Notes under the pieces: generated by a model
What the model was told of the DNA's origin: nothing
Database searches by the model: none
Seen by the model: only the letters and a program-made list of their open reading frames with translations
Source of the DNA: an uncultured Sphingomonas sp.
Lineage (GTDB): Bacteria > Pseudomonadota > Alphaproteobacteria > Sphingomonadales > Sphingomonadaceae
Assembly: GCA_946886645.1 (NCBI GenBank)
Contig: CAMPIY010000039.1
Location: 1 to 10,975, forward strand
DNA: 10,975 nucleotides
Reading direction: 5' to 3'
Program-made: the position numbers and the translations under genes
Part shown: positions 115 to 10,937 of the stretch, in pieces
How the letters are laid out: each line of letters begins with the position of its first letter
How positions within the stretch are numbered: position 1 is the stretch's first letter

Positions 115-128
115 TTGACGTCGGTCAA
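115..128. promoter_or_regulatory. FixK/FNR-like palindromic box A
   Basis: The sequence is TTGACGTCGGTCAA, with perfect TTGAC/GTCAA half-sites around four bases. It is one of eight related sites in the window. It lies about 110 bp upstream of the start of the 119-aa hypothetical protein at 237, the nearest downstream gene. A possible -10 element, TATGCG at 163-168, lies downstream but is about 11 bp further away than expected for a site centred at -41.5. The site is seen directly; its role as an operator is inferred from the repetition. Confidence 0.6.
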
Positions 129-236
129 GGACCGTTTGGCGTCACGGGATGACTTGGCTCCTTATGCGGTGGCACACGGCCAACAACCATAAACGACGCT
201 CCTTGCGACGGAAGCCCGTAGGAGTTCGAGGCCGGA

Positions 237-596
237 ATGGCCGTTGAGATCAACCGGCGAGGCTTCGAGCATGCGCAACAGCTGATCAGCGACGGCAGGG
301 CAGTTGCGGACGAGCGCGACGACTGGAGCGAGCACCAGCCCTCGGCAGAAGACGAGAACAGGTTCATCGAGCGTCATGGGATGGCCGAATACGGCAAATG
401 GCACCTTGGCATCGACGACGAGAAATCCGCCCGGACAAAGGCGCACTACAAATTCCCCTATGGTGATTTCAGCAGGGTGCATCGCTGCGCCCTGCTCGCA
501 GCAGAAAGCAGGGCGGGCCAGTACAAGTATCGTGATATCGAGCTCGCCGCCGCCCATCTCCACGGCGCGATTGACGCGCTGACTCGCGCAGGTTGA
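237..596 (+). CDS. conserved hypothetical protein, 119 aa
   Basis: This is a small soluble protein with no signal peptide or membrane segment. It starts MAVEINRRGFEHA, has a central acidic/aromatic stretch (EYGKWHLGIDD, about residues 58-68) and a distinctive C-terminal block (YKFPYGDFSRVHRCALLAAE, about residues 73-92) followed by an alanine-rich helix. From memory, this block recurs in short uncharacterised proteins of many proteobacteria, so the gene is probably real and of conserved length. The function is unknown. GGAG at 221-224 lies 12 bases before the ATG, a rather long spacing. The gene stands alone between a partial gene on the left and a decayed gene on the right. The palindromic box at 115 suggests it belongs to the same regulon as the stress genes further right. 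No frameshift or unusual feature is seen. Confidence 0.8.
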   Translation: MAVEINRRGFEHAQQLISDGRAVADERDDWSEHQPSAEDENRFIERHGMAEYGKWHLGIDDEKSARTKAHYKFPYGDFSRVHRCALLAAESRAGQYKYRDIELAAAHLHGAIDALTRAG

Positions 597-627
597 CAAA
601 GGGCGCGCCACGACTGCTTTCGCGGTT

Positions 628-905
628 GTGATCAATGTTACCGTGCCCCTTCTGTTCTGGGCGAGAACGGCAGCCGGCACTTCATAAGCGTGCCCCAGGC
701 GTTTTTGCGGCGAGATCCGTGCCCACGCGATGTCGCCCTCCACGGCTTCGCCTCGGATTGGCGTCGAAAATCCGCGACGTAACGCGCTGCACTTCGGTGT
801 TCCCTGTGAAGAGCGAGGCTACATCTTTCCGGTCAAGCAGACGTGCGGCGCAAGACCGAGATCGCTTCGGAAGACGCGGTGACGGTGACGCTCGAGCTGC
901 TCTGA
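628..905 (+). pseudogene. frameshifted remnant of a DUF1905-type protein
   Basis: Successive pieces in different plus-strand frames reproduce the order of a DUF1905 domain (about 95 aa, function unknown). Bases 628-660 read VINVTVPLLFW. From 663 the frame reads ENGSRHFISVPQ. From 712 it reads EIRAHAM. From 743 to 817 it reads through SKIRDVTRCTSVFPVKSE. From 817 it reads GYIFPVKQ. From 843 it reads VRRKTEIASEDAVTVTLELL and stops at TGA 903-905. The total span, about 92 codons, matches the family length. The pieces fit what is remembered of the family: tPLw.W near the start, hFitlP, tSlFP, GYilPVK, then VRrk and a final TVTLEL strand. About five one- or two-base indels are needed, so this is an old pseudogene rather than one sequencing error. 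No intact frame covers it. The assignment rests on remembered family motifs and was not searched. Confidence 0.65.
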
Positions 906-909
906 GCGA

Positions 910-1155
910 TTAGGGCGTCTTGTCCCCTGGGTGCCTGCTCAGGCTCCGCTCGCCGTGCTCGATCTTGTCGCCCTTGTTGATGCCTTCGTGCGTCTCCGGG
1001 TCGCGAACTCGCTCGAGCTCGACCTGTGTGGCGATATCGGCTTGGTCCCCGCCGGCCGTGCCCTAGAAGCGGGGCGCTGGTTCCTCTCCTATGCTGCTTT
1101 CGATCAGTTCGTGATCGTCGTGCTCCCGCGCGATCTCGGCGCGGCGGCTTTCCAT
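910..1155 (-). pseudogene. small hydrophilic protein gene broken by an in-frame amber codon
   Basis: From ATG 1155 the minus strand reads 30 codons (MESRRAEIAREHDDHELIES... ending EEPAPRF), then TAG at 1065-1063. The same frame then continues for 50 more codons (GTAGGDQADIATQVELERVR... ending SLSRHPGDKTP) to TAA at 912-910. The second part has no ATG start but keeps a coding-like, charged composition. The join (EPAP-R-F-stop-GTAGG) would be restored by a one-base change of TAG to TCG. The product would be an 80-residue acidic/basic soluble protein resembling small hydrophilic sphingomonad hypotheticals; the function is unknown. GGAGGA lies about 11 bases upstream. The start lies 24 bases after the lipoprotein stop, so the two may have formed an operon. 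Its stop is 4 bases from the end of the convergent DUF1905 remnant, which suggests a decaying stretch. A genuine 30-aa peptide is an alternative. Confidence 0.55.
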
Positions 1156-1178
1156 GACCGACTCATTCCTCCAAGCAA

Positions 1179-1679
1179 CTATTGCGGCGGGAACTGCGCG
1201 CTGATCACCGTCCCGTTCGGCAGCTGACATTGGCCAGCGCCGCCCCCGGCCATTCCGGAGGACGGGCTCGCAAGCGTGAACTGGCAGCGCATATAGCCGC
1301 CCGCTCCCTGAAGGTTGGCGAGCACCTGGCCGGTGTAGTGGGTTATTACTGCTTGCGTTGGGCCCCAATAATCCCAGCCGCGCCAGCGCCACCGTCCTGC
1401 CCAACCCACCCATAGCGGGGCCGTCTCTTCGACGGTGGTTTCCCGGGTTATCTGAAAGAACGGCCCTTGGTAGGATGTGCCATCGCTGAGCATCGCGATC
1501 ATCGTCCCGCGAGATGGCGTTTCCGCTTTCCAGGTAAACGTAGCAGTCACGTTGCCGGTCACCGCTTGACCGGTCCCAACGCCGCTTGTCGTGCATCCCT
1601 GCAAAGCGACCAAGCCGCCGCTTACCATGCCCGCCAGAATCCAAGCGTACCCACCCCCGCGCACCATCGAAACTTTCAT
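1179..1679 (-). CDS. putative outer-membrane or periplasmic lipoprotein, 166 aa
   Basis: The N-terminus is a lipoprotein signal: a short charged start, a hydrophobic stretch (about residues 11-27) and the lipobox LQGC with Cys29 as the likely lipidation site. Thr30-Thr31 follows, which does not look like an inner-membrane retention signal. The mature part (about 137 aa) is rich in Gly, Trp and Thr, with a tryptophan-dense stretch around residues 90-106. Its C-terminal block is MRCQFTL...GMAGGGAGQCQLPNGTVI. Two cysteines, Cys132 and Cys151, could form a disulphide. This C-terminal pattern recurs, from memory, in uncharacterised bacterial lipoproteins; no function is known. The start is supported by AAGGAA about 8 bases before ATG 1679. 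Box B and the divergent hemerythrin lie upstream, but box B is about 200 bp away and probably serves the hemerythrin. Confidence 0.85.
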   Translation of the reverse strand: MKVSMVRGGGYAWILAGMVSGGLVALQGCTTSGVGTGQAVTGNVTATFTWKAETPSRGTMIAMLSDGTSYQGPFFQITRETTVEETAPLWVGWAGRWRWRGWDYWGPTQAVITHYTGQVLANLQGAGGYMRCQFTLASPSSGMAGGGAGQCQLPNGTVISAQFPPQ

Positions 1680-1767
1680 TATCAGTTTCCTTCATTGCGG
1701 CTGTGGAACATGCTTTCGCGTTCCTTTGCCCTCGTGCATCGCACCTGCATGAAATAAATTGACCATC

Positions 1768-1859
1768 GGCAGGAATGTTACGAGCAGTGCCTTCTACTCG
1801 AGACACCCGGTCATCCGCGCTCGCAATCGCAATGTCTGCTTTCGACCCCCATTCCTGCC
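1768..1859. repeat. 10-bp perfect inverted repeat in the lipoprotein-hemerythrin gap
   Basis: GGCAGGAATG (1768-1777) is repeated as its exact reverse complement CATTCCTGCC (1850-1859), with 72 bases between the arms. The arms lie in the divergent intergenic region (1680-1974, about 295 bases), which otherwise holds only box B and its possible -10. The arms could be two binding sites for a dimeric regulator, or chance. No gene was seen in this gap on either strand. Confidence 0.3.
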
Positions 1860-1877
1860 ATTAGCGGTTGGCCGGCA

Positions 1878-1891
1878 TTGACGACTGTCAG
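1878..1891. promoter_or_regulatory. FixK/FNR-like palindromic box B with a matching -10
   Basis: The sequence is TTGACGACTGTCAG (centre 1884.5), 84 bp before the hemerythrin ATG at 1975. A TATGCG hexamer at 1915-1920 sits about 30 bp after the centre. This is the position expected for the -10 element if the box is centred near -41.5, as at class II CRP/FNR promoters. The predicted transcript would start near 1926-1927 and have a leader of about 48 bases. This is the best promoter arrangement among the eight boxes. The lipoprotein gene on the other side starts about 200 bp away. Confidence 0.65.
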
Positions 1892-1974
1892 CGCGACGCA
1901 AGGGCGATGCAGGCTATGCGTCCGACGCACTTGGGACGGCCATGACGGGCGAAGCGTGACGGGAAGGGCCAGAG

Positions 1975-2556
1975 ATGAGCAACTATGCAGAGCGCGGCAG
2001 AACACCGCCGCACGCCATCATGCGCGATGATCCGCCACCGATCGTGCTAATCAAGGAAGAGCATCAGAGATTTCGAGAGCTTTTCGACCGCGCCGAATCT
2101 GCCGAAGGAGACGCCTTGATCGGGATATCCGGAGAGATTGGTGCCCGGCTCCTCATTCATATGGAGATCGAGGAGGACATTCTCTATCCCGCGCTGAAGG
2201 AGGTCATCAACGTCGAGGAAGTAGACGAGGGAATCGTCGAGCATCAGGTGGCGCGGAATCTCATCCTCGACATCACGCGCATGACCGGCCGCGAGGAGAT
2301 GTTCAAATCAAAGGTTCACGTGCTGGGCGAAGAGACGATGCATCACATCGACGAGGAGGATTCCAAGCTTTTCGAGGACGCCAAGGAGGCATGGAAGCAG
2401 GGCAGGATCGACCTCGTCGAGCTCGGCCAGCAACTGAGCGCTCGCTGCAAGGAACTCTACGATCGCCTCGATTCCATCGGGCGCGAAATGGATCAGCCCA
2501 AGGTCGAAATGCCCGTCGGCGATGATATCGAGGAATTGCCCGCGAGCGTTCCCTAG
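1975..2556 (+). CDS. hemerythrin HHE-domain protein (paralogue 1), 193 aa
   Basis: This is a cytoplasmic four-helix hemerythrin-like protein expected to bind a di-iron centre and so O2, NO or peroxide. Likely ligands are His30 (KEEH), His62 and Glu66 (HMEIEED), His90 (EHQ), and His124 with Glu128 (HIDEED). This spacing is typical of HHE-type domains, which fill roughly residues 20-135. A helical, acidic C-terminus (about residues 136-193) follows. The start at ATG 1975 is supported by GGAAGG at 1962-1967, 7 bases upstream. It aligns without gaps from the PPH motif (residues 11-13) to residue 129 with the second hemerythrin at 6169-6804, so the two are paralogues. Box B and a well-placed -10 lie upstream, suggesting control by a Crp/Fnr-type factor. 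The exact ligand set and physiological role (oxygen sensing, NO defence or iron/redox buffering) are not decided by the sequence. Confidence 0.92.
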   Translation: MSNYAERGRTPPHAIMRDDPPPIVLIKEEHQRFRELFDRAESAEGDALIGISGEIGARLLIHMEIEEDILYPALKEVINVEEVDEGIVEHQVARNLILDITRMTGREEMFKSKVHVLGEETMHHIDEEDSKLFEDAKEAWKQGRIDLVELGQQLSARCKELYDRLDSIGREMDQPKVEMPVGDDIEELPASVP

Positions 2557-2686
2557 GGAGCCACCGATTAGGGCCTGTTCTCACTTTTCGACGGCCGTCA
2601 CGCACTCGCTGTCGGTCAGGGGCGAGGAGGCGAGCGATGCTCGATGCAATGCAACCCGCCACAGATTCCTGTCGAGGACCGCAAAC

Positions 2687-2700
2687 ATGACGGTCGTCAA
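2687..2700. promoter_or_regulatory. FixK/FNR-like palindromic box C, no clear target gene
   Basis: The sequence is ATGACGGTCGTCAA; its reverse complement TTGACGACCGTCAT matches the window consensus. It lies in the 293-bp gap between the ends of the hemerythrin gene (2556) and the PQQ-type gene (2850), which converge here, so no recognised gene starts nearby. A TCTAGC at 2723-2728 is at the right distance for a plus-strand -10. No convincing open frame follows; the only one is about 25 codons, from ATG 2744. No terminator-like hairpin was recognised in the gap. The site may drive a small RNA, serve a lost gene or be inactive. Confidence 0.5.
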
Positions 2701-2849: not shown

Positions 2850-4619
2850 TCAGCGCAGGCCGAGGATTACCACTTTCGCACTCGTGATTTCAGTCGGCCA
2901 CAGGATTTCGGTGAGACCGGTAGCCGCCGCGACGCGCTCACCTTTTCCTGTATCATAAGTGATCACTCCACCACCGACAGCGCCGCCGATCTTCCTGCCC
3001 CAGAGCTTGCCGCCGCTGTTCGCGTCGAGTGCGTAGAAGTTGCCACCCATGTCGCCAAAGAAGACGACGCCTCCGGCTGTCGGCGTGACGCCGCTCTGGA
3101 TCGGGAAGTTGGTGTGGGCCCGCCAGCGCCATTTGCCGGTGTCGGCATCGACGGCATAGAGCCACCCGCCCCAGTGGAAGGTCGGGTCGGGCTTGCCCCA
3201 GGTCTCGTAGGGATTGATCGTGTCCTCCGCCGACCAGGCCTCGTAATCCTTGACGGAGAGGACCTTTCTCGCGCCCGCGACCTTGACCGTCGTGCACCAG
3301 TCGACCTGTCCGATCATCACGAGATTGTTCATCGGATCGTAGGCGGGGCCGTTCCATTCGGATCCGCCGGTCGTCCCCGGGCAGAAATGGACGGAGACTC
3401 CCGGCCGGAAAGGCACCCGCGGATTCTGGATGGTCGTGACGGGGAGCCGGTACAGGAGCTTCCTGGCGGCGAGGTCGATTCCGTAGAGATGGCCGTCCTT
3501 GGGCGCATCGACGAGCAGGTCGCGGCCGCCGGCGGTGTGGACCAGCACCGGCGCGCTCGACACGTCATAATCGTGCCAGTCGATGGGGACGAGCTTGAAG
3601 TCGCCGCGATAGCCCCCCGTCTTCGCGTCCAGGATGACGACTGATCCGGTCAGCAGGTTGGTGCCCTTGCGCAGCCCCTGCGCGAAGTCCGGCGCGGGGT
3701 TTCCGCCAGGGACATAGAGCAGCCCGGATTTCGTATCGAGCGTGTACGAGGTCCAGGTGCCGCCGCCGGTGATCGGCGCTCCATTCACGTTGTGCCATGT
3801 CGAGCCGTTGAGTGGGGACGACGCCTCCGGGCCATACTCCGGGTCACCGGGCTGCTTGGGGACCAGATAGAATTCCCAGTCGACTTTGCCGGTGACGGCG
3901 TCGAGGGCATACATGCGGCCGCGCACGTTCTTGAAGTCGCCGCCGGCGGTGCCGATGAAGACCATGCCGTTCCAGCCGATGGGCGCGGCGGGCGTGCTTT
4001 CGGCCTTCTTCGGGTCGGCGATCCTGGTCGCCCACAGCTTGCGGCCGGTCGCGAAATCATAGGCAATGACCCGGCCGTCCTGCGTGCCGCGGAAGACGCG
4101 GCCGTCCATCACCGCAACCCCGCGGCTGACGTCCTGCGGCGTGGAGGGGGCGTAATGTTCGCGGGCGTGCCAGATCGGACGACAATCGTTGGGGTCGATC
4201 GCGTAGGTATCGAACTCGGTGGAGAAGAGCAGGCGACCCCGGACTTCGACGAGCCCCGAGTTGAAGCCTGTGAACTTGCCGGTGTCGAAGGTGCACAGGA
4301 CCTTCAGCTGCGACGCGTTGGCCGGCGTGATCTGGGCGACCGGCGAGAAGCGCTCTGAGGTCAGCGTCTTGTTGTAGCTCGCCCAATCCTTCCCGGTGTC
4401 GTAGGCGGCGAGATTGAAGGCCGGCTTTCTGCCCGCCGCGGCGCCGGGAGCCATCTCGGTTTCGATCGTACCGGCCGGCGCATTGAGGTAGCGCGCCCAA
4501 TTAATGCCCATCGAGGCATAGCGGATGGCCAGATTCTTGTTGAGCAGGGCGAGGATCCCGGCGGCCGCGATCACGACCACGACGATCGCTCCGACAATGG
4601 CAAGACGCTTGTGCTTCAT
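2850..4619 (-). CDS. membrane-anchored PQQ-type beta-propeller (quinoprotein dehydrogenase-like), 589 aa
   Basis: Residues 7-27 form one hydrophobic segment after MKHKR, so the protein is probably anchored in the inner membrane with the propeller in the periplasm. The domain starts with the quinoprotein alcohol dehydrogenase signature (WASYNKTLTSERFSPVAQIT, residues 79-98). Tryptophan-docking repeats follow (YALDAVTGKVDWEF near 237; LYAVDADTGKWRWR near 487; FYALDANSGGKLW near 528). The block CPGTTGGSEWNGPAYDP lies at 413-429, and IDWHDYDVSSAPVLV at 346-360 matches the family W-D-Y-D strand. Family members oxidise alcohols or sugars with PQQ and pass electrons to a cytochrome or quinone. The adjacent-cysteine pair typical of the alcohol dehydrogenases is missing: PQ at 161-162 stands just before VSRGVAV where CC is expected. 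The usual GGK-W lysine is Ser420. Substrate, and even PQQ use, are therefore uncertain. GGAAG lies about 8 bases before ATG 4619. No heme-c motif is present, and no PQQ synthesis genes are in the window. Confidence 0.85.
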   Translation of the reverse strand: MKHKRLAIVGAIVVVVIAAAGILALLNKNLAIRYASMGINWARYLNAPAGTIETEMAPGAAAGRKPAFNLAAYDTGKDWASYNKTLTSERFSPVAQITPANASQLKVLCTFDTGKFTGFNSGLVEVRGRLLFSTEFDTYAIDPNDCRPIWHAREHYAPSTPQDVSRGVAVMDGRVFRGTQDGRVIAYDFATGRKLWATRIADPKKAESTPAAPIGWNGMVFIGTAGGDFKNVRGRMYALDAVTGKVDWEFYLVPKQPGDPEYGPEASSPLNGSTWHNVNGAPITGGGTWTSYTLDTKSGLLYVPGGNPAPDFAQGLRKGTNLLTGSVVILDAKTGGYRGDFKLVPIDWHDYDVSSAPVLVHTAGGRDLLVDAPKDGHLYGIDLAARKLLYRLPVTTIQNPRVPFRPGVSVHFCPGTTGGSEWNGPAYDPMNNLVMIGQVDWCTTVKVAGARKVLSVKDYEAWSAEDTINPYETWGKPDPTFHWGGWLYAVDADTGKWRWRAHTNFPIQSGVTPTAGGVVFFGDMGGNFYALDANSGGKLWGRKIGGAVGGGVITYDTGKGERVAAATGLTEILWPTEITSAKVVILGLR

Positions 4620-4692: not shown

Positions 4693-5295
4693 TCAACGCC
4701 GCTTTGCCTCGTCCTCGCCGCCGGGCTCATTCCGGGCAGGCTCCTCTACCGGCGCCGGCGGTCCGCTCCGCTTCTGCCGCCAGGCCTCGAAGTCGCGATC
4801 GAAGCGCGCCTGCCGGTCGCGGCAGTAATCGGCATATTCGCGGTCGAGCTCGGCCGTCTTGCGCCGGCGATAGTCGGCATAGCCGGTCCCGCCCTCTCCA
4901 GCGCCCCTCTGGGCCATCGCCCGCCTCAGCAGATAATATTCGCGCGCGGAGCTGTGCGGGCTGAACGCCGGCCTTTGCCCGCCGTCGAACGAGGAGACCG
5001 GGTCGACAGCATGACTGCCGACGGCGCCGACGTCGATGCGGTCGAAGCGAGGGCCGGCAAGGCTCGGATCCCACCCCGGGGCATCGGCCCGCGGTCCGCC
5101 GAACAAGCGGGGCGAAGGGTCCCCGGGGTCATAATAAGCGAATGGCGAATCCAGCGGCGCCCACGCGCGCTCGTGCCAGTCATCCTCGCGCCGTCCCAGG
5201 AGACGGTCGAGCTTCTCCTCGATCCGCCGGAGGATGGAGCCGCGATCCTCTTCCCTGCCTTCGTCCTGATCCACCGTGCGACTGTCGCTGTCCAT
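4693..5295 (-). CDS. charged hypothetical protein with terminal coiled-coil-like helices, 200 aa
   Basis: Soluble; no signal peptide or membrane segment. Residues about 15-35 (SILRRIEEKLDRLLGRRED) form a charged amphipathic helix. The middle is Pro/Gly-rich (YDPGDPSPRLFGGPR). The C-terminal third has the pattern GYADYRRRKTAELDREYADY and continues to FDRDFEAWRQKR, a long Arg/Asp/Tyr-rich helix. From memory, similar tails occur in uncharacterised sphingomonad proteins, some near BON-domain genes; no function is known. The start was placed at ATG 5295 (MDSDSRTVDQ) because GAAGGA lies 6-7 bases upstream; an in-frame extension to 5355 would run back into box D. The gene follows the Crp/Fnr gene after 63 bases and precedes the PQQ-type gene by 73 bases on the same strand, so the three may be co-transcribed. 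Confidence 0.75.
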   Translation of the reverse strand: MDSDSRTVDQDEGREEDRGSILRRIEEKLDRLLGRREDDWHERAWAPLDSPFAYYDPGDPSPRLFGGPRADAPGWDPSLAGPRFDRIDVGAVGSHAVDPVSSFDGGQRPAFSPHSSAREYYLLRRAMAQRGAGEGGTGYADYRRRKTAELDREYADYCRDRQARFDRDFEAWRQKRSGPPAPVEEPARNEPGGEDEAKRR

Positions 5296-5348
5296 GGCCC
5301 ATCCTTCACATCGAAGGCCTCGTCCACGACCTTTCGAACGGCCGCTCC

Positions 5349-5362
5349 ATGACAACGGTCAA
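5349..5362. promoter_or_regulatory. FixK/FNR-like palindromic box D over the Crp/Fnr stop codon
   Basis: The plus-strand sequence is ATGACAACGGTCAA; on the coding (minus) strand it reads TTGACCGTTGTCAT. The TGA of the Crp/Fnr gene (5361-5359) lies inside the box. The centre is about 60 bp before the start of the charged hypothetical gene at 5295. No good -10 is seen at the expected distance (5321-5326 reads GGACGA on the minus strand), so activation from here is unproven. Confidence 0.5.
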
Positions 5363-6147
5363 GAAATCACTGTTCCGGCCGGGTCCGAGGGCCAGGTGGA
5401 GCGGAGCTCGAGATAATGCGGATCGAACTCGGCCAGCGCCGCGAGCTCGCGCCCATTGTTCACCCGGAGGATTCCGCGAGTCACGTCGGCCAGGCCTCGT
5501 TCGCGCAGCACCCGGAACGTGCGGTTGACGTGGACGGGCGTCAGGCCGAGCGTTTCCCCGACCATCCGCTGCGAGAAAGGGAACGGGCAGCAGGCCGTGC
5601 CGTCCAAGCCGGGCGCTCCGGAGCGGATGACCACCTCGCACAGAAAATGCGCGAGCGAAGCAATCGCGGGCATGATGCTGTTCCGGGTCAGCCATGCGGA
5701 TTGGACTCCGGTCTGGAACAGCGTCTCGATCGTGAGCAGCCGAAGAATTCGGGGACTCCTGTCGAGCAGCTGGCGGATCTCGCCGCGGGGAATGAATCGC
5801 GCCTTGGTTCGCACGAGGGCCGCGATCTGTCCTTCGAGCGGCGTCCCGACCAATGCTTCCACGGTTGCCCAGTCGCCGGGAAAATAGAGCGCCACCACCT
5901 GCCGCCGACCGTCGCGCTTCTGGATGTAGCGAAACAGAAGGCCGCTGAGGACAAGCACGGCGAATTCCGGCTCCCTCCCCCGAAGCCGGACATGGGCGCC
6001 CTTGGGGATTTGCCTGCTCTCGCCCGTCAGGTCATGGAGGGCGCCGAGATCGGCCCGGCACAGGCCAAGGGGACTTGCGATTGGACCATGAGGCAGGCCT
6101 TGCAGCCTGGCTGCCGGCGCTTGTCGGTGGGCCGCCCGCGTATCCAC
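5359..6147 (-). CDS. Crp/Fnr-family transcriptional regulator (FixK-like)
   Basis: The protein has up to 262 aa. A cyclic-nucleotide-binding-type beta-roll lies at about residues 48-125, a dimerisation helix at about 130-172, and a winged helix-turn-helix at about 190-235 with the recognition segment VGETLGLTPVHVNRTFRVLR (196-215). In FNR numbering the E..SR recognition residues become V..NR, keeping the arginine that contacts the G of the TTGA half-site. It lacks the N-terminal cysteine cluster of FNR (only Cys30, Cys170, Cys186 and Cys187 are present) and shows no cAMP-binding RS motif, so it resembles FixK/DNR-like members of unknown signal. The start is GTG 6147, with GGAAGG only 3 bases upstream; no ATG is available in frame nearby, so the start is uncertain. 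It lies 21 bases after the second hemerythrin and is probably co-transcribed with it. It is the natural candidate to bind the eight palindromes of the window; this is inference. Confidence 0.88.
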   Translation of the reverse strand: MDTRAAHRQAPAARLQGLPHGPIASPLGLCRADLGALHDLTGESRQIPKGAHVRLRGREPEFAVLVLSGLLFRYIQKRDGRRQVVALYFPGDWATVEALVGTPLEGQIAALVRTKARFIPRGEIRQLLDRSPRILRLLTIETLFQTGVQSAWLTRNSIMPAIASLAHFLCEVVIRSGAPGLDGTACCPFPFSQRMVGETLGLTPVHVNRTFRVLRERGLADVTRGILRVNNGRELAALAEFDPHYLELRSTWPSDPAGTVIS

Positions 6148-6168: not shown

Positions 6169-6804
6169 CTAATGCCGGCCATGGCTGACCGCGCCTGAGC
6201 GCTCGGGGCGCGCCTGGCCGTCGACCGGCGAGCCGGATTGCGCCAGGCATTCCACGGCATCCGCGGGAAGGTCGACATCGAAGGCCTGGGTCTCGAGGGC
6301 GGCCGAGCCGACCAGAGTGAACAGATCGCGCCGTCGGCTCTGCATCGGGACTCCGATCGCGACGAGGTCGACCCTGCCATCCTCCCATGCCCTGCGCGCG
6401 TCGCGCAGCAGTTGCCGGTCTTCCTCGTCGATATGGCCGATCACCTGCTCGCCAAGCGCGTGCACCCTGGTCCTGAGACGCGCTCCGCGGCCGGTCATGT
6501 CCATGATCTCCGAGATCAGGCGCTTGGTAAGCTGATGCTCGCGCATGGCCTCGTCGATCCCGTCTGCGTCGATCAGGGTGCTGAGCGATGGGTAAAGGAG
6601 TTCTTCCTCGAGGCTCATGTGGATCGCGAGGCGGATGCAGATCTCGCCGGCAATCGGAAAGAGGACGTCCTCGCCGACGGTCTCGACCAGATCGAACAAT
6701 GCGCGGAAGATCTGATGGTCTTCCTTGAGCTGGGCGATCGCTGGCGGATCACGATCATCGATCAGGTGCGGCGGCACGCTGGCATTGTTCACGTAAGCCG
6801 TCAT
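6169..6804 (-). CDS. hemerythrin HHE-domain protein (paralogue 2), 211 aa
   Basis: Cytoplasmic di-iron hemerythrin-like protein. Likely ligands are His30 (KEDH), His62 and Glu66 (HMSLEEE), His90 (EHQ), and His124 with Glu128 (HIDEED), at exactly the same residue numbers as in the paralogue at 1975-2556. The shared opening (PPH at 11-13, then DPP-I--LKE-H) shows homology beyond the metal site. The C-terminus (about residues 140-211) is longer and unlike the paralogue; it is arginine-rich near 155 and ends in a polar tail. The start was set at ATG 6804 because AGGAGG lies about 9 bases upstream; the in-frame extension to 6831 has no such support. It lies 91 bases after Hsp20 on the same strand and 21 bases before the Crp/Fnr regulator. 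A hemerythrin next to a regulator of the oxygen/NO family suggests a related signal, but the sequence does not prove it. Confidence 0.92.
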   Translation of the reverse strand: MTAYVNNASVPPHLIDDRDPPAIAQLKEDHQIFRALFDLVETVGEDVLFPIAGEICIRLAIHMSLEEELLYPSLSTLIDADGIDEAMREHQLTKRLISEIMDMTGRGARLRTRVHALGEQVIGHIDEEDRQLLRDARRAWEDGRVDLVAIGVPMQSRRRDLFTLVGSAALETQAFDVDLPADAVECLAQSGSPVDGQARPERSGAVSHGRH

Positions 6805-6895: not shown

Positions 6896-7531
6896 TCAGG
6901 CCGCCGCGTCGGCCTTTTCGCGCTGTGCTCCGGCGCCCTTTTCGCGGGCCGAAGAGCCGGTGCCCGTGGCCGAGCCCTGCTCCTGGCTGGTGCCGCGCCC
7001 GCTTGTCGACGAGCCGGTGCTGGTGCTTGCGCCGGCCCCGCTTCTGGCCTGGCCGGAATCGCGTTTCACCTCGATCTGCCTGTGCCTGCTCTGCTGCTCG
7101 GCATTCTTCGGCGCCGTGATTGTCAGGACGCCATCCCTGAACTGGGCTTCGACACGGTCGGGATCCGGCGCGAACGGCAGTTGAATGGCCCGCCGGAACC
7201 GGCCGAAGGCGCGTTCGACCAGCCGCATGCCGCCCTCGTCCACTTCTTCTTCCTGCCTCTTCTCGCCGGCGATGATCAGCATGTCGTCGTCGAGGGTGAC
7301 CTCGACATCGTCCTCCGAGACGCCGGGCAGCTCGGCCGTTACCCGGATTTCATTCCCCTTGTCCTCGATGTTCATCCGCGGCTGAGCGAGCAAGTCGCCG
7401 CCGCCGTTGCCGGTGCGTGTCCCGACGACGTCCGAAAACAGGCTGTCGACCAGCCGGAACGGGTCCATCAGCGATGGCAGCGCCGGCGTCCGGCGCGAGC
7501 GGGAAGTGGGTGCAAGCGAGCGCGAGGCCAT
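6896..7531 (-). CDS. Hsp20 family small heat-shock chaperone with long low-complexity tail, 211 aa
   Basis: An ATP-independent holdase that binds unfolding proteins as an oligomer. The alpha-crystallin domain spans about residues 52-142. It includes VTAELPGVSEDDVEVTL (64-80), IIAGEKR (86-92), the loop FGRFRRAIQLP (109-119) and the family signature GVLTITAPK (134-142). An I-x-V motif (IEV, 153-155) that locks oligomers follows. Residues 159-211 form an unusual tail of Ser, Gly, Thr, Ala and Gln ending in REKGAGAQREKADAAA; most bacterial Hsp20 proteins stop soon after the I-x-V motif. The start at ATG 7531 (MASRSLAP) has GGAG 7 bases upstream; an in-frame TTG at 7537 is less likely. Two palindromic boxes (E and F) lie in the divergent promoter region shared with the PRC-barrel gene. 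A hairpin follows the gene. Confidence 0.93.
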   Translation of the reverse strand: MASRSLAPTSRSRRTPALPSLMDPFRLVDSLFSDVVGTRTGNGGGDLLAQPRMNIEDKGNEIRVTAELPGVSEDDVEVTLDDDMLIIAGEKRQEEEVDEGGMRLVERAFGRFRRAIQLPFAPDPDRVEAQFRDGVLTITAPKNAEQQSRHRQIEVKRDSGQARSGAGASTSTGSSTSGRGTSQEQGSATGTGSSAREKGAGAQREKADAAA

Positions 7532-7608: not shown

Positions 7609-7622
7609 TTGACGACGGTCAG
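7609..7622. promoter_or_regulatory. FixK/FNR-like palindromic box E (Hsp20/PRC-barrel divergent region)
   Basis: TTGACGACGGTCAG, 77 bp before the Hsp20 ATG and 89 bp before the PRC-barrel ATG. It differs from box B at one base. Its centre is exactly 33 bp (three helical turns) from that of box F. No clear -10 is seen at class II distance on either side. Confidence 0.6.
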
Positions 7623-7641: not shown

Positions 7642-7655
7642 CTGACGCTTGTCAT
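7642..7655. promoter_or_regulatory. palindromic box F, second site in the divergent region
   Basis: CTGACGCTTGTCAT keeps the TGAC-N4-GTCA core perfectly but has lost the outer T/A pair, so it is probably weaker. It lies 56 bp before the PRC-barrel ATG. As a single site it would not be convincing; the pairing with box E in phase on the helix makes it worth listing. Confidence 0.4.
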
Positions 7656-7711
7656 GGCGCCCGAGACGCTCGGAAGTGATGAGGCCGGCTCCTTACGAAA
7701 GGAGACAACAC

Positions 7712-8125
7712 ATGCCCTTGATTGAGAATTGCGCGGGATTTGGCCGCAAGGCGCTCCTGCTTGCGGCGGCGGTCGCGCTGCCCGCGAGCGCATTGACCTT
7801 CAGCACGCCGGCCGGGGCGCAACATCCGGTCGTCCTTGCGGTAGTTGATGTGAAGCTGGTGGCGCTCGGCTTCCGGATCAGCGAGCTGATCGGAAAGCCG
7901 GTCTACAATCCGCAGGGGCAGAAGATCGGCAAGGTCGATGACTTCATCATCCAGCGCGACAAGGTGCTGATGACCATCATCAACGTCGGCGGATTCCTCG
8001 GCATCGGCGGACGGCTGATCGCCATCCCTTATTCGTCATTGCAGATGACACCCAAGGGGATGGTGCTGCCAGGCGCGAGCAAGCAGGCGGTCGGCAAGCT
8101 CCCGCAGTTCCACTACCGCCGATAG
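7712..8125 (+). CDS. secreted PRC-barrel domain protein, 137 aa
   Basis: The N-terminus is a Sec-type signal peptide: Arg12-Lys13, a hydrophobic stretch ALLLAAAVALPASA (14-27), then likely cleavage after AGA at 34-36. The mature protein holds one PRC-barrel-type beta-domain (about residues 54-115): ISELIGKPVYNPQGQKIGKV, then DDFII, VLMTIINVGGFLGIGGRLIAIPYSSL. PRC-barrels occur in photosynthetic reaction-centre H subunits, RimM and many small stress or envelope proteins; the role here is unknown. The start at ATG 7712 has GGAG 7 bases upstream; an upstream in-frame ATG at 7649 would hide the signal peptide. The gene diverges from Hsp20, shares boxes E and F with it, and is followed after 3 bases by a hairpin. 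Confidence 0.87.
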   Translation: MPLIENCAGFGRKALLLAAAVALPASALTFSTPAGAQHPVVLAVVDVKLVALGFRISELIGKPVYNPQGQKIGKVDDFIIQRDKVLMTIINVGGFLGIGGRLIAIPYSSLQMTPKGMVLPGASKQAVGKLPQFHYRR

Positions 8126-8128
8126 GGA

Positions 8129-8150: not shown

Positions 8151-8345
8151 CTAATCGAGTTCGTCGGCGCCGCTTCGGGTGTCAGGCTCGTCCTCGACCA
8201 CGAGGTCCTGGTCCTCGTCGTCGGCATCGGATGCACCCGTCGTCCATGCCGGCGGGTCGCTCGCGGGGAAGGATTCGATATCGGCCTCCTCGACCGGATC
8301 GAGCTCGACCGGGTCGAACTCCTTTTTTTCGCGGCCGGCAGTCAT
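8151..8345 (-). CDS. small acidic protein with ESFPASDPPAW motif, 64 aa
   Basis: A 64-residue, strongly acidic soluble protein (MTAGREKKEFDP...). The motif ADIESFPASDPPAW (21-34) is a hallmark, from memory, of a widespread family of very small uncharacterised bacterial proteins. The C-terminal half is mostly Asp and Glu. Its ATG overlaps the DsbA-like stop as ATGA (8345-8342), which points to translational coupling. It is the last gene of the HdeD - peroxiredoxin - DsbA-like operon and ends directly at the hairpin 8129-8150. Function unknown; the context suggests a helper in the redox or stress unit. Confidence 0.85.
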   Translation of the reverse strand: MTAGREKKEFDPVELDPVEEADIESFPASDPPAWTTGASDADDEDQDLVVEDEPDTRSGADELD

Positions 8346-8902
8346 TCGACCGCAATCCTGACGACATTGGACGGAACGGCGGTTGCCGTCGCCTCTATCG
8401 CCGTCGCGAGAGTCGCAGCGTCGTAAGCGCCGTCGTGCCGCTCGCCATTGACGAAGAAGCAGGGCGTGCCGTTCACGCCGCTTCGGATCCCGCTGAAGAA
8501 ATCGGCATCGACCTTGGGTGCGTAGGTGCCTGCCTCGAGTGCGTTCCGAAGCTCGGCGACGTCGAGCCCGAGCTTGCTTGCAAGCGCAAACAGGGCGACC
8601 CCCGACAATTGGTGCGCGTTCGCATAGATCGCCGAGTGCATTTCCCAGAACAGCCCATGCGCCCCGGCGAATTCCGCAGCTTCCGCGGCAGGCTTGGCGA
8701 GGGGATGCACGGTCGACATCGGGAAATGCCGGTAGGCATAGCAGAGATCGTCCCCGAAATGACTCAGAACCAGTTCGACCTCCGGCCACGCGGCCTGGCA
8801 ATGCGGGCACTGATAGTCGCCATATTCGACGAGCGTCACCGGCGCGTCGGCGGGCCCGATGATATGATCGTCCTCGCTGATCGGAAATCGCAGCTCAGGC
8901 AT
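8342..8902 (-). CDS. cytosolic DsbA-like thiol-disulfide oxidoreductase, 186 aa
   Basis: Thioredoxin-fold protein of the DsbA/FrnE-like family. The redox motif CPHC is at Cys32-Cys35 within YGDYQCPHC, a helical insertion covers about residues 65-140, and the cis-proline loop GTPCFFVNG is at 145-153 (Pro147). No signal peptide precedes it (MPELRFPISEDDHIIG), so it probably acts in the cytoplasm, unlike classical periplasmic DsbA. Cys54 and Cys148 are extra cysteines; Cys148 directly follows the cis-proline, an unusual position. Its first 8 bases overlap the end of the peroxiredoxin gene, and its stop overlaps the next start by 4 bases, so it is translationally coupled on both sides. The pairing suggests it could reduce or partner the peroxiredoxin, but that is inference. 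Confidence 0.92.
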   Translation of the reverse strand: MPELRFPISEDDHIIGPADAPVTLVEYGDYQCPHCQAAWPEVELVLSHFGDDLCYAYRHFPMSTVHPLAKPAAEAAEFAGAHGLFWEMHSAIYANAHQLSGVALFALASKLGLDVAELRNALEAGTYAPKVDADFFSGIRSGVNGTPCFFVNGERHDGAYDAATLATAIEATATAVPSNVVRIAVE

Positions 8903-9380
8903 CGGCGCTCTCCAGTTTCGGCATGCGCTCGAGCGCGTCGAGAATGCCGTCGGCGCCGGGATTGACCGCGATGGGCGAAAGATAGCTCCAGACGATGTGC
9001 CCGGTCTCGTCGAGGATGAACAAGGCGCGGTCGGCCACGCCTTCGCTTTCGCGATAGGCGCCGTATGACTTTGCGATTTCTCCCTTCGGATGAAAATCGG
9101 CGATCAGCGGAAAATGGAGCTGGTTCGCCTTGGCGTAAGCCTGGTGGCACCAGGCGCCGTCGACCGAGATGCCGAGCAATTCCGCGCCATGCTTGCGGAA
9201 CTCCGGAAGCGCCATGTTGTAGAGGGTCATCTGATCGCCGCAGACCGGACTCCAGTCGGCCGGGTAGAAGGCGAGGATGACGCGGCGGCCCCTGAGATCG
9301 CGGAGCGAAAGCTTCTGATCGGGAGTGACGGGCGCAGTGAAGTCGGGCGCCTTGGCTCCGGGTTGCAGGATCTCACCCAT
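8895..9380 (-). CDS. peroxiredoxin of the AhpC/TSA (BCP/AhpE-like) family, 161 aa
   Basis: Reduces hydrogen peroxide or organic hydroperoxides with a cysteine thiol. The active-site pattern P-x-x-x-S-x-x-C is present (YPADWSPVC: Pro40, Ser44, peroxidatic Cys47), with the conserved arginine likely Arg118 (VADRALFILD). The N-terminus GAKAPDFTAPVTPDQKLSLRDL and the block LLGISVDGAWCHQAYAK are typical. Cys78 is the only other cysteine and could be a resolving cysteine, though its position just after SVD is atypical; a one-cysteine mechanism is possible. No signal peptide, so cytoplasmic. The start overlaps the HdeD stop by 8 bases (ATGGGTGA), and the end overlaps the DsbA-like start by 8 bases. 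Confidence 0.93.
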   Translation of the reverse strand: MGEILQPGAKAPDFTAPVTPDQKLSLRDLRGRRVILAFYPADWSPVCGDQMTLYNMALPEFRKHGAELLGISVDGAWCHQAYAKANQLHFPLIADFHPKGEIAKSYGAYRESEGVADRALFILDETGHIVWSYLSPIAVNPGADGILDALERMPKLESADA

Positions 9381-10017
9381 GATGCGCCTCCCGCGGGCGG
9401 GCTCCCGAAAATTCGGCGGCCGGCGCTGCCTTCACGCGGTCCTCGGCGTTCCGCGCGCGCAGCCGATAGGCAAGGGCGAGCAAAGCGAAGCCCGCGAAGA
9501 ATGCCTGGAAGCCGACAAGATAGGACAAGGCGAGCATCCCGAGATTGACGTCCCACACCGCCCACAAGCCGAAGAACAGGGCGATGAGACCCGCGATCAG
9601 CAGCCACCAGCGGCCGTGATCGATGTTGAGCTGCATCGCCGCGACGATCGACGTCACTCCGGAAATGAGCGCCCAGACGGCGAACAGGATTCCGAAGGCG
9701 ATCGCGGTCAGGGCCGGATAGAATATTGCGACCGCCGCTGCGGCGATCGAGATCACTCCATTGAACGCGAGCCAGCCCCAACGCTCGTGCCGCCGTGCGC
9801 CTCGGATTGCGAGGACGATGGCGAATGCGCCGTCGACGAGCGAATATGCGGCGAAGATCATCACCAAAGCGATGAGCGTCACTGCGGGCGCGAAAATCGC
9901 GATTGATCCGATCAGGATGGCGCAGACCCCGCGCAGCGCGGCTGCCCACCAATTGCTTGCCAGAAGCGCCTGCCTCGCGCGCGAATGCACGCCGCCGCGC
10001 CCGAATATCGTTGCCAT
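9373..10017 (-). CDS. HdeD-family inner-membrane protein, 214 aa
   Basis: Six hydrophobic segments fit the HdeD/DUF308 fold: about residues 24-43, 47-69, 81-100, 104-126, 137-156 and 160-184, with a conserved-looking start NWWAAALRGV and a hydrophilic tail (185-214). In E. coli, HdeD is linked to acid resistance at high cell density; the molecular activity is unknown. GGAG lies 8 bases before ATG 10017. It is the first gene of the four-gene unit ending at 8151. Box G lies 54 bp upstream of the start. The AT-rich stretch 10031-10040 could hold a -10, but not at the exact class II distance. Confidence 0.9.
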   Translation of the reverse strand: MATIFGRGGVHSRARQALLASNWWAAALRGVCAILIGSIAIFAPAVTLIALVMIFAAYSLVDGAFAIVLAIRGARRHERWGWLAFNGVISIAAAAVAIFYPALTAIAFGILFAVWALISGVTSIVAAMQLNIDHGRWWLLIAGLIALFFGLWAVWDVNLGMLALSYLVGFQAFFAGFALLALAYRLRARNAEDRVKAAPAAEFSGARPREAHHG

Positions 10018-10070
10018 ATCACGTCTCCAAATTTCTAAATCTCGCCTCTCATGTCACTGGCCGCTGCTCG

Positions 10071-10084
10071 TTGATGACCGTCAA
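10071..10084. promoter_or_regulatory. FixK/FNR-like palindromic box G upstream of the HdeD operon
   Basis: TTGATGACCGTCAA has TTGA/TCAA ends exactly matching the FixK/FNR pattern. It is 54 bp before the HdeD start. It sits between HdeD and the terminator of the BON gene, so HdeD is the only gene it can serve in the downstream direction. The spacing to an AT-rich -10 candidate (TAGAAA, 10037-10032) would put the box near -52. Confidence 0.65.
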
Positions 10085-10105
10085 TTTCCAGGGGATGGAG
10101 AGAAA

Positions 10106-10140
10106 ATGGCGGCGCCCCCGGGGAGAGAGGGCGCCGCCAT
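10106..10140 (-). terminator. intrinsic terminator of the BON-protein gene
   Basis: A perfect 12-bp GC-rich stem (10106-10117 with 10129-10140) with an 11-base loop, followed on the minus strand by TTTTCTCTCC. It lies 33 bases after the BON stop, so it ends that transcript before box G and HdeD. Confidence 0.85.
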
Positions 10141-10173
10141 CGGACGCCTGAGGCCAGCTTCAGGCCGGCCGTC

Positions 10174-10860
10174 TCATGCTTCCTCGAGTTCCCGCGTTTC
10201 CTGAAGCGCCGGATCGACCTGGATCTCGTTCTTGACTTCGAACACGCCGGGCGCGCGCCACGCCGCCTTCTCCGCTTCTTCCTTTTCGGCCCAGGAGCGC
10301 ACGCGGCCGCGCAGCGTGACCGTGCTGCCGTCCGCCACAACGGTTATGCGATTGGCGTCGATCTCGGCACTGCGTTTCAGCGCCTCCTCGATCTTCTGCT
10401 TGACGTCGGACGTGCTCACCCGTTCCTTGATATGGATCAGGTTGATCACGCCCTTGACTCCCTTCACGTTCCGCACGGCGGCCTCCGCCGAGCGCCGCTG
10501 GAAATCCCAGTCGACATCGCCTTCGAGCGTGATCCAGGCCTGGCGCACAGTCACCTTGATGTTCTGTGAGCTGTACGGAAGATCCCGCTTGAGCTTGTCG
10601 ACCGCGTCCCGCGCAATGTCCGGATCGGGTCGCTCGGATCCGGTGGCGAGCTTCACTTCAATATCGTTGGCGACCGCCTTGACGCCGCGCAGGCGCTTGG
10701 CGACGCGCTCGGCCTCATATCTGTCCGAATAGCTCGGGACGAACCCGGTCAGGGTCACCACGCCGTCCGATACCTTGACGGCGATATTCTTCGCATCGAT
10801 GTCGGGTTCCCATTCGAGTTCGAGCTCGACGTCGCGCTTGATGTCATCGTCAGTTCGCAT
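10174..10860 (-). CDS. cytosolic triple-BON-domain protein, 228 aa
   Basis: Three BON domains in tandem: about residues 5-70 (DDIKRDVELEL ... GVVTLTGFV), 80-148 (IARDAVDKLKRDL ... AWITLEGDV) and 151-215 (DVKQKIEEALKR ... STVTLRGRV). Each shows the alpha-beta layout and the V-x-G-V glycine pattern between repeats (RGVKAVAN, KGVKGVIN). BON domains in OsmY-type proteins are thought to contact membranes and are induced by osmotic stress. OsmY is periplasmic, but this protein has no signal peptide. The start at ATG 10860 (MRTDDD) has GGAGAG 7-8 bases upstream; a longer frame to 10899 lacks such a site. Box H lies 64 bp upstream, with CAATGC (minus, 10901-10896) at class II -10 distance. It ends at a strong terminator, so it is a single-gene unit. 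Confidence 0.92.
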   Translation of the reverse strand: MRTDDDIKRDVELELEWEPDIDAKNIAVKVSDGVVTLTGFVPSYSDRYEAERVAKRLRGVKAVANDIEVKLATGSERPDPDIARDAVDKLKRDLPYSSQNIKVTVRQAWITLEGDVDWDFQRRSAEAAVRNVKGVKGVINLIHIKERVSTSDVKQKIEEALKRSAEIDANRITVVADGSTVTLRGRVRSWAEKEEAEKAAWRAPGVFEVKNEIQVDPALQETRELEEA

Positions 10861-10923
10861 TGGTTCTCTCCACTTGCTGATTCGCGGGAGGAAGCGCATT
10901 GGATCGGCGCCAACTGCGATGCG

Positions 10924-10937
10924 TTGATGATCGTCAA
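10924..10937. promoter_or_regulatory. FixK/FNR-like palindromic box H upstream of the BON gene
   Basis: TTGATGATCGTCAA, extended to a 16-base near-palindrome (10923-10938) by flanking G and C. The centre (10930.5) lies about 30 bp from a minus-strand CAATGC hexamer (10901-10896), the class II spacing also seen at box B. It could also serve a plus-strand gene beyond the window. Nothing was recognised in the last 37 bases. Confidence 0.6.

Follow-up and report, generated by a model that had tools for sequence, protein, structure and literature searches.

Among the closest described counterparts of the locus analysed here are the FixK2 and FixK regulons of Bradyrhizobium and Caulobacter, whose known targets are respiratory oxidase genes dispersed over the genome. 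In Enterobacteria, the transmissible locus of stress tolerance, or heat-resistance island, carries HdeD and Hsp20, as do the present islands; neither an array of FixK boxes nor a regulator resembling FixK is known to us from it. Both the FixK/FNR box and the control of an Hsp20 gene by FnrN are known: in R. leguminosarum, expression of the small heat-shock gene rlv_1399, with boxes at -87.5 and -143.5, depends on FnrN (PMC11784457). In the open literature searched, we found no description of a box array that spans an island. Here we consider a 10,975-nucleotide stretch of an uncultured Sphingomonas sp. (contig CAMPIY010000039.1), hereafter the window, with the following genes:

237 to 596, + strand: 119-aa ORF without a Pfam or NCBIfam match
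1975 to 2556, + strand: hemerythrin-domain protein 1 (PF01814)
2850 to 4619, - strand: PQQ-type dehydrogenase-like beta-propeller protein (PF01011; NCBIfam PQQ models matched only under their cut-offs)
4693 to 5295, - strand: 200-aa ORF, family not recognised, with box 5349 upstream
5359 to 6147, - strand: Crp/Fnr-family regulator of 262 aa (PF13545, PF00027)
6169 to 6804, - strand: hemerythrin-domain protein 2 (PF01814)
6896 to 7531, - strand: Hsp20 small heat-shock protein (PF00011)
7712 to 8125, + strand: PRC-barrel protein (PF05239)
8342 to 8902, - strand: DsbA-like thioredoxin-fold protein (PF13462)
8895 to 9380, - strand: AhpC/TSA-family peroxiredoxin (PF00578)
9373 to 10017, - strand: HdeD/DUF308 membrane protein (PF03729), leading hdeD-ahpC-dsbA
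10174 to 10860, - strand: BON-domain protein (PF04972; three BON stretches matched)

The hemerythrin 2 gene, 21 bp from the regulator gene, probably shares an operon with hsp20. An Rfam search of the window gave no match.

The box array of the window

A sequence-only reading had placed eight palindromes in the window, and all eight are present at those positions:

115 to 128, +: exact; 20.4 bits; centre 115.5 bp upstream of the ATG of the 119-aa ORF
1878 to 1891, +: one mismatch; 21.4 bits; 90.5 bp upstream of hemerythrin 1; TA at the -10 distance
2687 to 2700, +: one mismatch; 23.4 bits, the top matrix score of the window
5349 to 5362, -: one mismatch; 15.0 bits; 60.5 bp upstream of the ATG chosen for the 200-aa ORF
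7609 to 7622, -: one mismatch; 19.4 bits; 84.5 bp upstream of hsp20
7642 to 7655, +: weaker, two mismatches; 18.4 bits; 63.5 bp upstream of the PRC gene and 117.5 bp of hsp20
10071 to 10084, -: exact; 23.3 bits; 60.5 bp upstream of hdeD
10924 to 10937, -: exact; 22.6 bits; 70.5 bp upstream of the start chosen for the BON gene

The consensus TTGAY-N4-GTCAA, attributed to all eight, fits exactly at 115, 10071 and 10924 only, with one mismatch at 1878, 2687, 5349 and 7609 and two at 7642 (CTGACGCTTGTCAT). As palindromes of the TTGAY-N4-RTCAA form upstream of genes (three exact, four with one mismatch and one with two), the boxes are of the FixK/FNR operator type. Five indeed carry the longer form TTGAYGAYNGTCA; the common orientation claimed for it extends to four of them, since it lies on the + strand at 1878, 7609, 10071 and 10924 and on the - strand at 2687. 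Gene coverage of the window is 80.6%, given the chosen gene starts, and seven of the boxes contain no coding base; box 5349 shares 4 bases with the end of the regulator gene. All boxes face a start codon except 2687: this one is flanked by convergent genes and has no start codon downstream, and its G at +9 points right, toward a geneless stretch. From box centre to the start codon of the nearest faced gene the distance is 60.5-115.5 bp (117.5 if 7642, 33 bp from 7609, is also counted for hsp20).

The statement that this array is far beyond chance was borne out by dinucleotide shuffles, a consensus-free inverted-repeat scan, an outside-trained matrix and real-DNA controls. Allowing one mismatch, TTGAY-N4-GTCAA has 15 strand-matches in the window, where 0.48 would be expected; the coding site 7970 is among the 15, and none of 200 dinucleotide shuffles reached this count. 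When every 4-mer was scanned at gaps of 0-12, leaving the earlier consensus unused, TGAC-N4-GTCA emerged as the top inverted repeat of the window (6 seen against 0.22 expected; 1e-7 before correcting for ~3,300 tests). The weight matrix was built from 29 boxes of other islands and none from the window, two of them in coding sequence (L169 7775 and L191 8905); these were chosen via a consensus derived from the earlier one, so that the matrix test is sequence-independent and not consensus-independent. With this matrix the eight boxes take ranks 1-7 and 9 in the window. Nine sites reach 15 bits or more; 300 dinucleotide shuffles averaged 0.07 such sites, with 1 as the maximum, and the 80 control loci, 1.44 Mb in all, had 29, equal to 0.22 per 11 kb. 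A matrix match at 7970, scoring similarly to the boxes, lies inside the PRC gene.

Box-bearing islands in other alphaproteobacteria

Clusters bearing such boxes were found in Altererythrobacter (G201), Sinorhizobium NGR234, Azospirillum (A. brasilense) and the genome G809, three of them being located via HdeD and that of G201 via the FixK-like regulator itself. All four have parts of the set hdeD, ahpC, dsbA, PRC-barrel, BON, Hsp20, DnaK and DnaJ. The DnaK and DnaJ of NGR234 and the DnaK of G809 were identified by eye, and the simple gene caller used misplaced some overlapping genes. The A. brasilense plasmid NZ_CP059451 has six exact TTGAYN4RTCAA sites, at a USP/USP pair, BON-hdeD, ahpC-dsbA, dnaJ and trxC; two of the six belong to the USP/USP pair, one of these lying 17 bases inside an annotated gene, and the BON-hdeD site is the identical 14-mer to box 10071. 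On pNGR234b, hdeD-ahpC-dsbA is ordered exactly as in the window and is accompanied by PRC, BON and Hsp20 genes.

Local concentration of the motif was confirmed in these other bacteria by scanning one genome assembly plus two complete plasmids. In G201, 12 of the 75 genome-wide TGACN4GTCA sites fall inside 62 kb, a stretch picked afterwards, against ~1.3 expected; with strands merged, TGAYN4GTCAA has 8 of 29 sites in 29 kb of the 863 kb of the A. brasilense plasmid and 6 of 49 in 23 kb of the 2.43 Mb of pNGR234b. The preferred inner bases GAC, suggested to be perhaps undescribed, recur in the other islands and are thus a trait of the island's box type rather than of the window alone. Recurrence of the boxes before related genes spans three orders. 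HdeD neighbourhoods without ahpC and dsbA partners (L116, L117, L127-L135, L136, L137) showed no array, and HdeD alone is therefore no predictor of boxes. HdeD was searched in 71 genomes congeneric with G001, with 2 matches, so that the window probably belongs to another genus.

We also compared the form of the promoters using 30 oriented boxes, 8 from the window and 22 from the other islands, the direction of 2687, 7642 and L115 7514 being our choice. Twelve matches were left out as ambiguous in direction, inside a gene or second of a pair (L138 24291, 24306, 26085 and 28676; L126 3580, 6090 and 10400; L169 2719, 7775 and 13525; L191 8905; L115 22755). At +9, counted from the centre of the box, 28 of the 30 have a G (8/8 in the window), and at the mirroring position 6 have a C (2/8 in the window). 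Downstream, TA occurs 29-32 bases away in 13 of the 30, compared with 0-5 in nine other 4-base blocks. Both features fit a placement at -41.5 relative to a predicted transcription start; the TA at the -10 distance is seen in just 2 of the 8 window boxes, which counts against class II activation by a FixK-like protein.

Each of the four other islands encodes a FixK-like regulator whose ETV[SC]R helix contains the glutamate that reads DNA. In PDB searches, made for the NGR234 protein and P0213, FixK2 was the best solved relative (4i2o, 3.4e-33 for the NGR234 regulator). Against the NCBIfam FixK model the island regulators score 103-141.5 bits, and P0213 94.6, below the 300-bit cut-off. Next to the FixK-like gene, G809 encodes a histidine kinase as well as a response regulator, and A. 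brasilense a response regulator. FixK-/FNR-like homologues without an island are common, which speaks against the reading preferred below: no island genes were found at the homologue loci L140-L168 (29), the longer versions L170-L173 or L196-L205 (10).

The window's Crp/Fnr protein and the reader of the boxes

The Crp/Fnr protein of the window was rightly described as being without an Fe-S cysteine cluster: its sole cysteines are 30, 170, 186 and 187, and it lacks the N-terminal cluster of FNR. It resembles FixK in having Crp/Fnr domains without such a cluster and departs from it in the recognition helix, which is PVHVNR instead of the glutamate-bearing ETVSR; its score with the NCBIfam FixK model is 34.1 bits, under the 300-bit cut-off. 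The helix type was classified in all 240 listed homologues: [VIL]HxNR, without glutamate, is present in 120/120 of those of the window regulator, and ET[VI]xR in the regulators of the four other islands and 120/120 listed homologues of one of these.

The view that the encoded protein reads the boxes is thus unsupported as put forward, its helix being without Glu, its relatives without an array and the regulators of the other islands Glu-type. Of the proposed compact stress regulon travelling with its regulator, the FixK/FNR-type boxes, the local regulon and the stress genes stand; a role of the local Crp/Fnr as its reader is unsupported. The 80 loci surrounding relatives of the window regulator showed no array, and at 15 bits or higher each has at most three sites; [VIL]HxNR is visible in the aligned portion for 73 of these loci, and for the other 7 the motif falls outside that portion. 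L001 and L002, the closest relatives (40% and 37%), lack TTGAYN4RTCAA even when one mismatch is allowed. Searches of 397 genomes of the family and 396 of the order, both samples of larger groups, turned up no orthologue exceeding 40% identity. Searching the window for TTAAT, GTAAC and TGTGA palindromes gave nothing clear, nor did a search for a palindrome common to the upstream regions of eight Sphingomonas regulators of the window type.

Our preferred reading, with a joint probability of about two in three, is that the window belongs to a recurring alphaproteobacterial stress island and that its boxes are predicted to serve as class II operators for a FixK-like activator whose gene would lie directly beyond it, the local Crp/Fnr probably being a target or second-tier regulator. 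Seven predicted operons (119-aa ORF; hemerythrin 1; 200-aa ORF and PQQ-type gene; hsp20-hemerythrin 2-crp; PRC-barrel; hdeD-ahpC-dsbA; BON) would carry FixK/FNR-type operators ~41.5 bp before the putative transcription start. Low oxygen or redox stress would act through a FixLJ-like two-component pair to switch on an activator with an ETV[SC]R helix, whose gene is probably in this island, close beyond the window; bound to the boxes, this activator would recruit RNA polymerase by class II activation. The PVHVNR protein is encoded in the predicted hsp20 operon, so it most likely stands under the control of the box system as a second-tier regulator and is not the main reader. P0011 (window-type) and P0213 (VETVSR) are both labelled Sphingomicrobium MAG, and in each case the longest contig has 11,730 bases; from this agreement in label and length they probably lie on one contig. 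A P0213 search of 296 Sphingomonadales genomes at 1e-32 found none, which would tell against a FixK-like reader, although such an empty answer is uninformative. An extended reading, which we hold tentatively and at somewhat less than even odds, is that at least three alphaproteobacterial orders share a self-contained stress island with its own FixLJ-K-like circuit and a private directional operator (TTGAYGAYNGTCAA-SGC, with G at +9 on the gene side). This island would comprise chaperones, peroxiredoxin, DsbA, HdeD, BON and PRC-barrel proteins, with hemerythrins in the window's clade, and a second Crp/Fnr protein, of the PVHVNR type, would have entered the hsp20 operon in the window's lineage, being recruited into a two-tier cascade.

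That the boxes are chance occurrences or a mobile repeat without regulatory role would suit box 2687, which has no downstream gene, and the match at 7970; given the shuffles, the controls on real DNA, the positions of the boxes and their return before related genes across three orders, this reading has hardly any credence. Another explanation is that a distant general oxygen regulator (FNR, FnrL or FixK) reads the boxes, the islands having joined the host's anaerobic regulon. Compatible with our preferred reading, it draws on the FnrN-controlled sHSP of R. leguminosarum (PMC11784457), on Hsp20 and USP genes tabulated as microoxia-induced in B. diazoefficiens (PMC6515984), and on two exact boxes within 3.6 kb at the Sphingomonadaceae FNR/FixK-like loci L154, L155, L162, L165 and L168. 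We consider it unlikely, as each of the four islands has an internal FixK-like gene and the G201 inner form TGACGATCGTCA has, among the 51 sites listed of the 75, 7 of its 8 copies at the island.

Likewise unlikely, in our estimate, is that the window's own PVHVNR protein is the reader, the island having exchanged its FixK-like regulator while the TTGAC specificity was kept or regained; still, the protein may bind the boxes directly. It is the sole regulator recognised in 11 kb, and box 5349 touches its gene. Translated, this box forms the C-terminus (FLT[VI]VM or close) in 13 of 20 close homologues, and it is therefore probably conserved in the clade. Across its clade the regulator gene seems to keep the box alongside, which a cognate regulator might do too. 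Proline at position 180 suits the TTGAC type of HcpR (PMC1274295), and CprK-type proteins, likewise without Glu, bind a modified FNR box (PMC7062800). Against this reading, HcpR2 has a GTAAC motif along with the loss of that Glu (PMC1274295), and CprK, with Val aligned at the Glu position, has a TTAAT motif; the position of Glu-181 is Val, Ile or Leu in 120/120 homologues listed, the 80 relative loci are without an array, and the regulator is Glu-type in four other islands. L079 (Rhizobium albus), a window-type regulator locus, has two exact TTGAYN4RTCAA sites, one ~111 bp upstream of a BON gene, contrary to a FixK-like reader; this box and the 120/120 regulator counts point opposite ways, leaving the odds of the readings unaltered.

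Implications and comparison with known systems

If the preferred reading is true, protection of soil alphaproteobacteria, including nitrogen-fixing plant partners, against heat, redox stress and low oxygen would be the work of one island with its own FixK circuit. One box and one regulator type would predict the regulon in any genome and account for oxygen-type boxes upstream of chaperone genes, and the window would offer a clean test case for DNA choice by Crp/Fnr proteins without the recognition Glu.

The islands share with the FixK2/FixK regulons the TTGAY-N4-RTCAA-type palindrome, regulators that best match FixK2 (4i2o, for the two tested) and the NCBIfam FixK model, and, in two islands, an adjoining two-component pair or response regulator. 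They differ in that their FixK scores (94.6-141.5) are all under 300 and in their presumed targets, which are genes for chaperones and redox stress lying in one cluster with the regulator. Like the Enterobacteria heat-resistance island, of which the annotation hdeD-GI among the matches is a reminder, the alphaproteobacterial islands also have Clp, DegP-like, PsiE and thioredoxin genes and are partly plasmid-borne; unlike it, they have hemerythrin, BON and PRC-barrel genes and the hdeD-ahpC-dsbA order. The HcpR regulon has the same palindrome consensus, TTGACnnnnGTCAA, and Ser or Pro at position 180; its targets are hcp and nitrogen-oxide genes (PMC1274295), none of which is among the Pfam matches of the window. 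As in the FnrN anaerobox system of rlv_1399, an Hsp20 gene has one good and one imperfect box ~85-145 bp upstream, at -84.5 and -117.5 in the window against -87.5 and -143.5; the reader there is FnrN (PMC11784457), whereas the window clusters about seven boxed transcription units, including those of the hemerythrins, HdeD, BON and PRC-barrel proteins.

Gene content and box array of the window

Pfam searches of the window recovered two hemerythrin-domain proteins, a PQQ-type beta-propeller protein, a Crp/Fnr protein, Hsp20, a PRC-barrel protein, a DsbA-like protein, an AhpC/TSA peroxiredoxin, a DUF308/HdeD protein and a BON protein, and gave no Pfam match for the 119-aa ORF, the 166-aa ORF or the 220-aa frame containing the 200-aa ORF. 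The hemerythrins (1975-2556 and 6169-6804) score 52.1 and 33.1 bits with the NCBIfam PA2171 persister-protein model, far under its cut-off of 190. The nearest relatives of the Crp/Fnr protein (66-98% identity) are metagenome-derived; NCBI is given as a source for two, and one of this pair is labelled Sphingomicrobium sp. MAG. Between the 119-aa and 166-aa ORFs, about 570 bases (600-1175) lack a convincing gene; the ORFs at 635-913 (no Pfam match) and 931-1227 resemble debris. A short stretch around EEADIESFPASDPPAW in the 64-aa ORF at 8151-8345 recurs in four other loci, L114, L115, L128 and L129, which also contain HdeD.

The sequence-only reading described eight FixK/FNR-type palindromes in this DNA as sharing TTGAY-N4-GTCAA. 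All eight were found by pattern search where they had been placed, but the consensus is exact in just three (box start positions in forward-strand numbering):

115, box, exact
1878, box, one mismatch
2687, box, one mismatch
5349, box, one mismatch
7609, box, one mismatch
7642, box, two mismatches
10071, box, exact
10924, box, exact
5359..6147 (-), gene of the Crp/Fnr regulator, 262 aa, recognition helix PVHVNR

The array is far beyond chance, as had been claimed: allowing at most one mismatch there are 15 strand-matches where 0.48 would be expected, a number never reached in 200 dinucleotide shuffles. When 4-mer inverted repeats with any gap of 0-12 were counted, TGAC-N4-GTCA came out as the top palindrome of the window (6 versus 0.22 expected). 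In a weight matrix built from 29 boxes of other islands, with zero window sequence, the same eight sites rank 1-7 and 9 in the window. Nine window sites score at least 15 bits versus a mean of 0.07 in 300 shuffles, and control DNA from 80 loci around relatives of the window regulator has 29 such sites in 1.44 Mb. The eighth-ranked site, 7970, falls within the PRC gene and was discounted as an operator.

With the gene starts picked in this analysis, genes cover 80.6% of the window. Measured to the nearest start codon that a box faces, the box centres lie 60.5 to 115.5 bp upstream. The boxes lie between genes as described, except that 4 bases of box 5349 fall inside a gene. Box 2687 is the sole one without a gene in front of it: rightward of the box there is no convincing reading frame, and a convergent gene follows with its 3' end first. 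This box, which has the top matrix score and faces the gene-free stretch (2687-2850), is accompanied by the G at +9 and by CTAG where a -10 element would lie; the box may be the promoter site of a small RNA or a remnant left by a lost gene.

In 13 of 20 homologues of the window regulator (P0002-P0011 and P0017-P0019), the C-terminus is FLT[VI]VM or similar, the translation of box 5349; judged from these proteins, the box therefore seems to be conserved beside the regulator gene. Around 5340-5380 two reading frames are used at the ends of the homologues: in P0001 and in the window regulator the stop codon lies inside the box, its TGA belonging to TTGACC, and P0002-P0011 continue across the box with extra residues.

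Box-bearing islands in other bacteria

Four other box-bearing stress clusters were recovered. On pNGR234b of S. fredii NGR234, hdeD-ahpC-dsbA are ordered as in the window (identities 43%, 71% and 54%), along with PRC, three BON genes and Hsp20; here boxes precede the three BON genes, PRC, Hsp20/DnaJ, DnaK and the local regulator gene. The A. brasilense island (NZ_CP059451) combines USP, BON-HdeD, GrpE, DnaK, ClpB, Hsp20, PRC, DegQ, DsbA, a redoxin, a sigma factor and DnaJ, and its promoters carry six exact TTGAYN4RTCAA boxes. Between the DUF5335/sigma-factor and DnaJ/CbpM genes of this species, the starts of two boxes (24291 and 24306 of locus L138) are separated by 15 bp, an unusually tight tandem. 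Genome G809 has HdeD, AhpC, DsbA, PRC and DnaK with three boxes at no more than one mismatch. G201 (probably Altererythrobacter) has BON, HdeD, DsbA, Hsp20, DnaK and DnaJ, with ahpC close by, and most of its boxes are TGACGATCGTCA or close to it. About 50 kb from the first, G201 carries a second BON-HdeD-Hsp20 set (L192, 7830-9517), which has near-identical boxes of its own and gives the impression of a partial duplication of the island. Another boxed G201 gene (L191, 2535-4229) encodes a pyridine nucleotide-disulphide oxidoreductase with an N-terminal cNMP-binding domain. At 13 loci having HdeD without ahpC-dsbA partners there was no box array.

Whether the motif is equally common everywhere, the check proposed with the sequence-only reading, was examined in three of these cases, and the distribution proved uneven. 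G201 has 75 copies of TGACN4GTCA versus 38 of the reversed control pattern, and 12 of the 75 fall within 62 kb (1,744,719 to 1,806,390; bounds picked after the fact, with 51 of the 75 sites listed), where about 1.3 are expected. For TGAYN4GTCAA, with strands merged by hand, 8 of 29 distinct sites on the A. brasilense plasmid lie in the 29-kb island (1.0 expected) and 6 of 49 on pNGR234b lie within 23 kb (0.5 expected). These excesses argue against equal frequency throughout.

Promoter form

Thirty boxes were oriented towards genes, 8 from the window and 22 from other islands, twelve further matches being excluded. A G stands at +9 from the centre in 28 of the 30, including all eight window boxes, and the mirroring position is C in 6. 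With the centre at -41.5 this G would fall at -33, where the -35 element TTGACA has its G. At the distance of a -10 element, 29-32 bases downstream, 13 of the 30 have a TA step; nine other 4-base blocks give 0-5. Of the 8 window boxes, only 2 have the TA. As sequence features, the G and the TA spacing would be consistent with class II activation.

Candidate regulators of the boxes

Each of the four islands encodes a Crp/Fnr protein with an AETVCR, VETVCR or VETVSR recognition helix; HdeD led to three of these islands and the regulator itself served as query for G201, so the four-of-four count is not selection-free. FixK2 (4i2o) is matched by the NGR234 protein at 3.4e-33 and by P0213, a FixK-like homologue with VETVSR, at 3.3e-22, versus only 2.8e-7 for the window protein. 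The two helix types are uniform: [VIL]HxNR in 120 of 120 listed homologues of the window protein (best 120 of 387) and ET[VI]xR in 120 of 120 of the G201 FixK-like protein (best 120 of 236).

A rival reading, that the window's own Crp/Fnr protein reads the boxes, is favoured by L079 (Rhizobium albus, 10889-12904). There a BON gene in the neighbourhood of a VHxNR regulator has the box TTGATCAGGGTCAA about 111 bp upstream, and another exact site is at 12891. This is the sole such locus among the 80 around the window protein's relatives, and none of the 80 showed a box array. According to the specificity paper PMC1274295, the motif depends on residues 180 and 181: TTGAC accompanies Pro or Ser at 180, and HcpR2, with Glu-181 lost, has the motif GTAAC. 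Solved CprK sequences align with the window protein, with Val at the Glu-181 position; the CprK motif is given as the dehalobox TTAAT-N4-ATTAA (PMC3638464), though RdhK6 is reported to accept a modified FNR box too (PMC7062800). Homologues P0011 (window type) and P0213 are both labelled Sphingomicrobium MAG, and for both the longest contig has 11,730 bases, so in the window's clade the two regulator types are probably encoded together on a single contig.

A FixK-like activator under a two-component pair is most likely the driver of the boxed genes. A response regulator and a histidine kinase adjoin the FixK-like gene in G809, and a response regulator does so in A. brasilense. Such a pair would sense low oxygen or a redox change, upon which the activator would be made, bind the boxes and jointly switch on chaperone, thiol-redox and envelope-stress genes. 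The window order is hsp20, hemerythrin 2 and the Crp/Fnr gene, with gaps of 91 and 21 bp; hence the Crp/Fnr gene would share the boxes of hsp20, and its protein would act second.

Comparison with known systems

Searches of open-access literature on FixK with HdeD/BON/PRC-barrel, hemerythrin and Hsp20/ClpB, and on stress-tolerance loci with a regulator, turned up no account there of an island saturated with such boxes. FixK/FnrN boxes are already known, as is their use at Hsp20 genes. PMC11784457 reports boxes at -87.5 and -143.5 for an R. leguminosarum sHSP gene, with FnrN-dependent expression up about 50-fold at low oxygen; the two boxes of the window hsp20, at -84.5 and -117.5, sit close to the same places.
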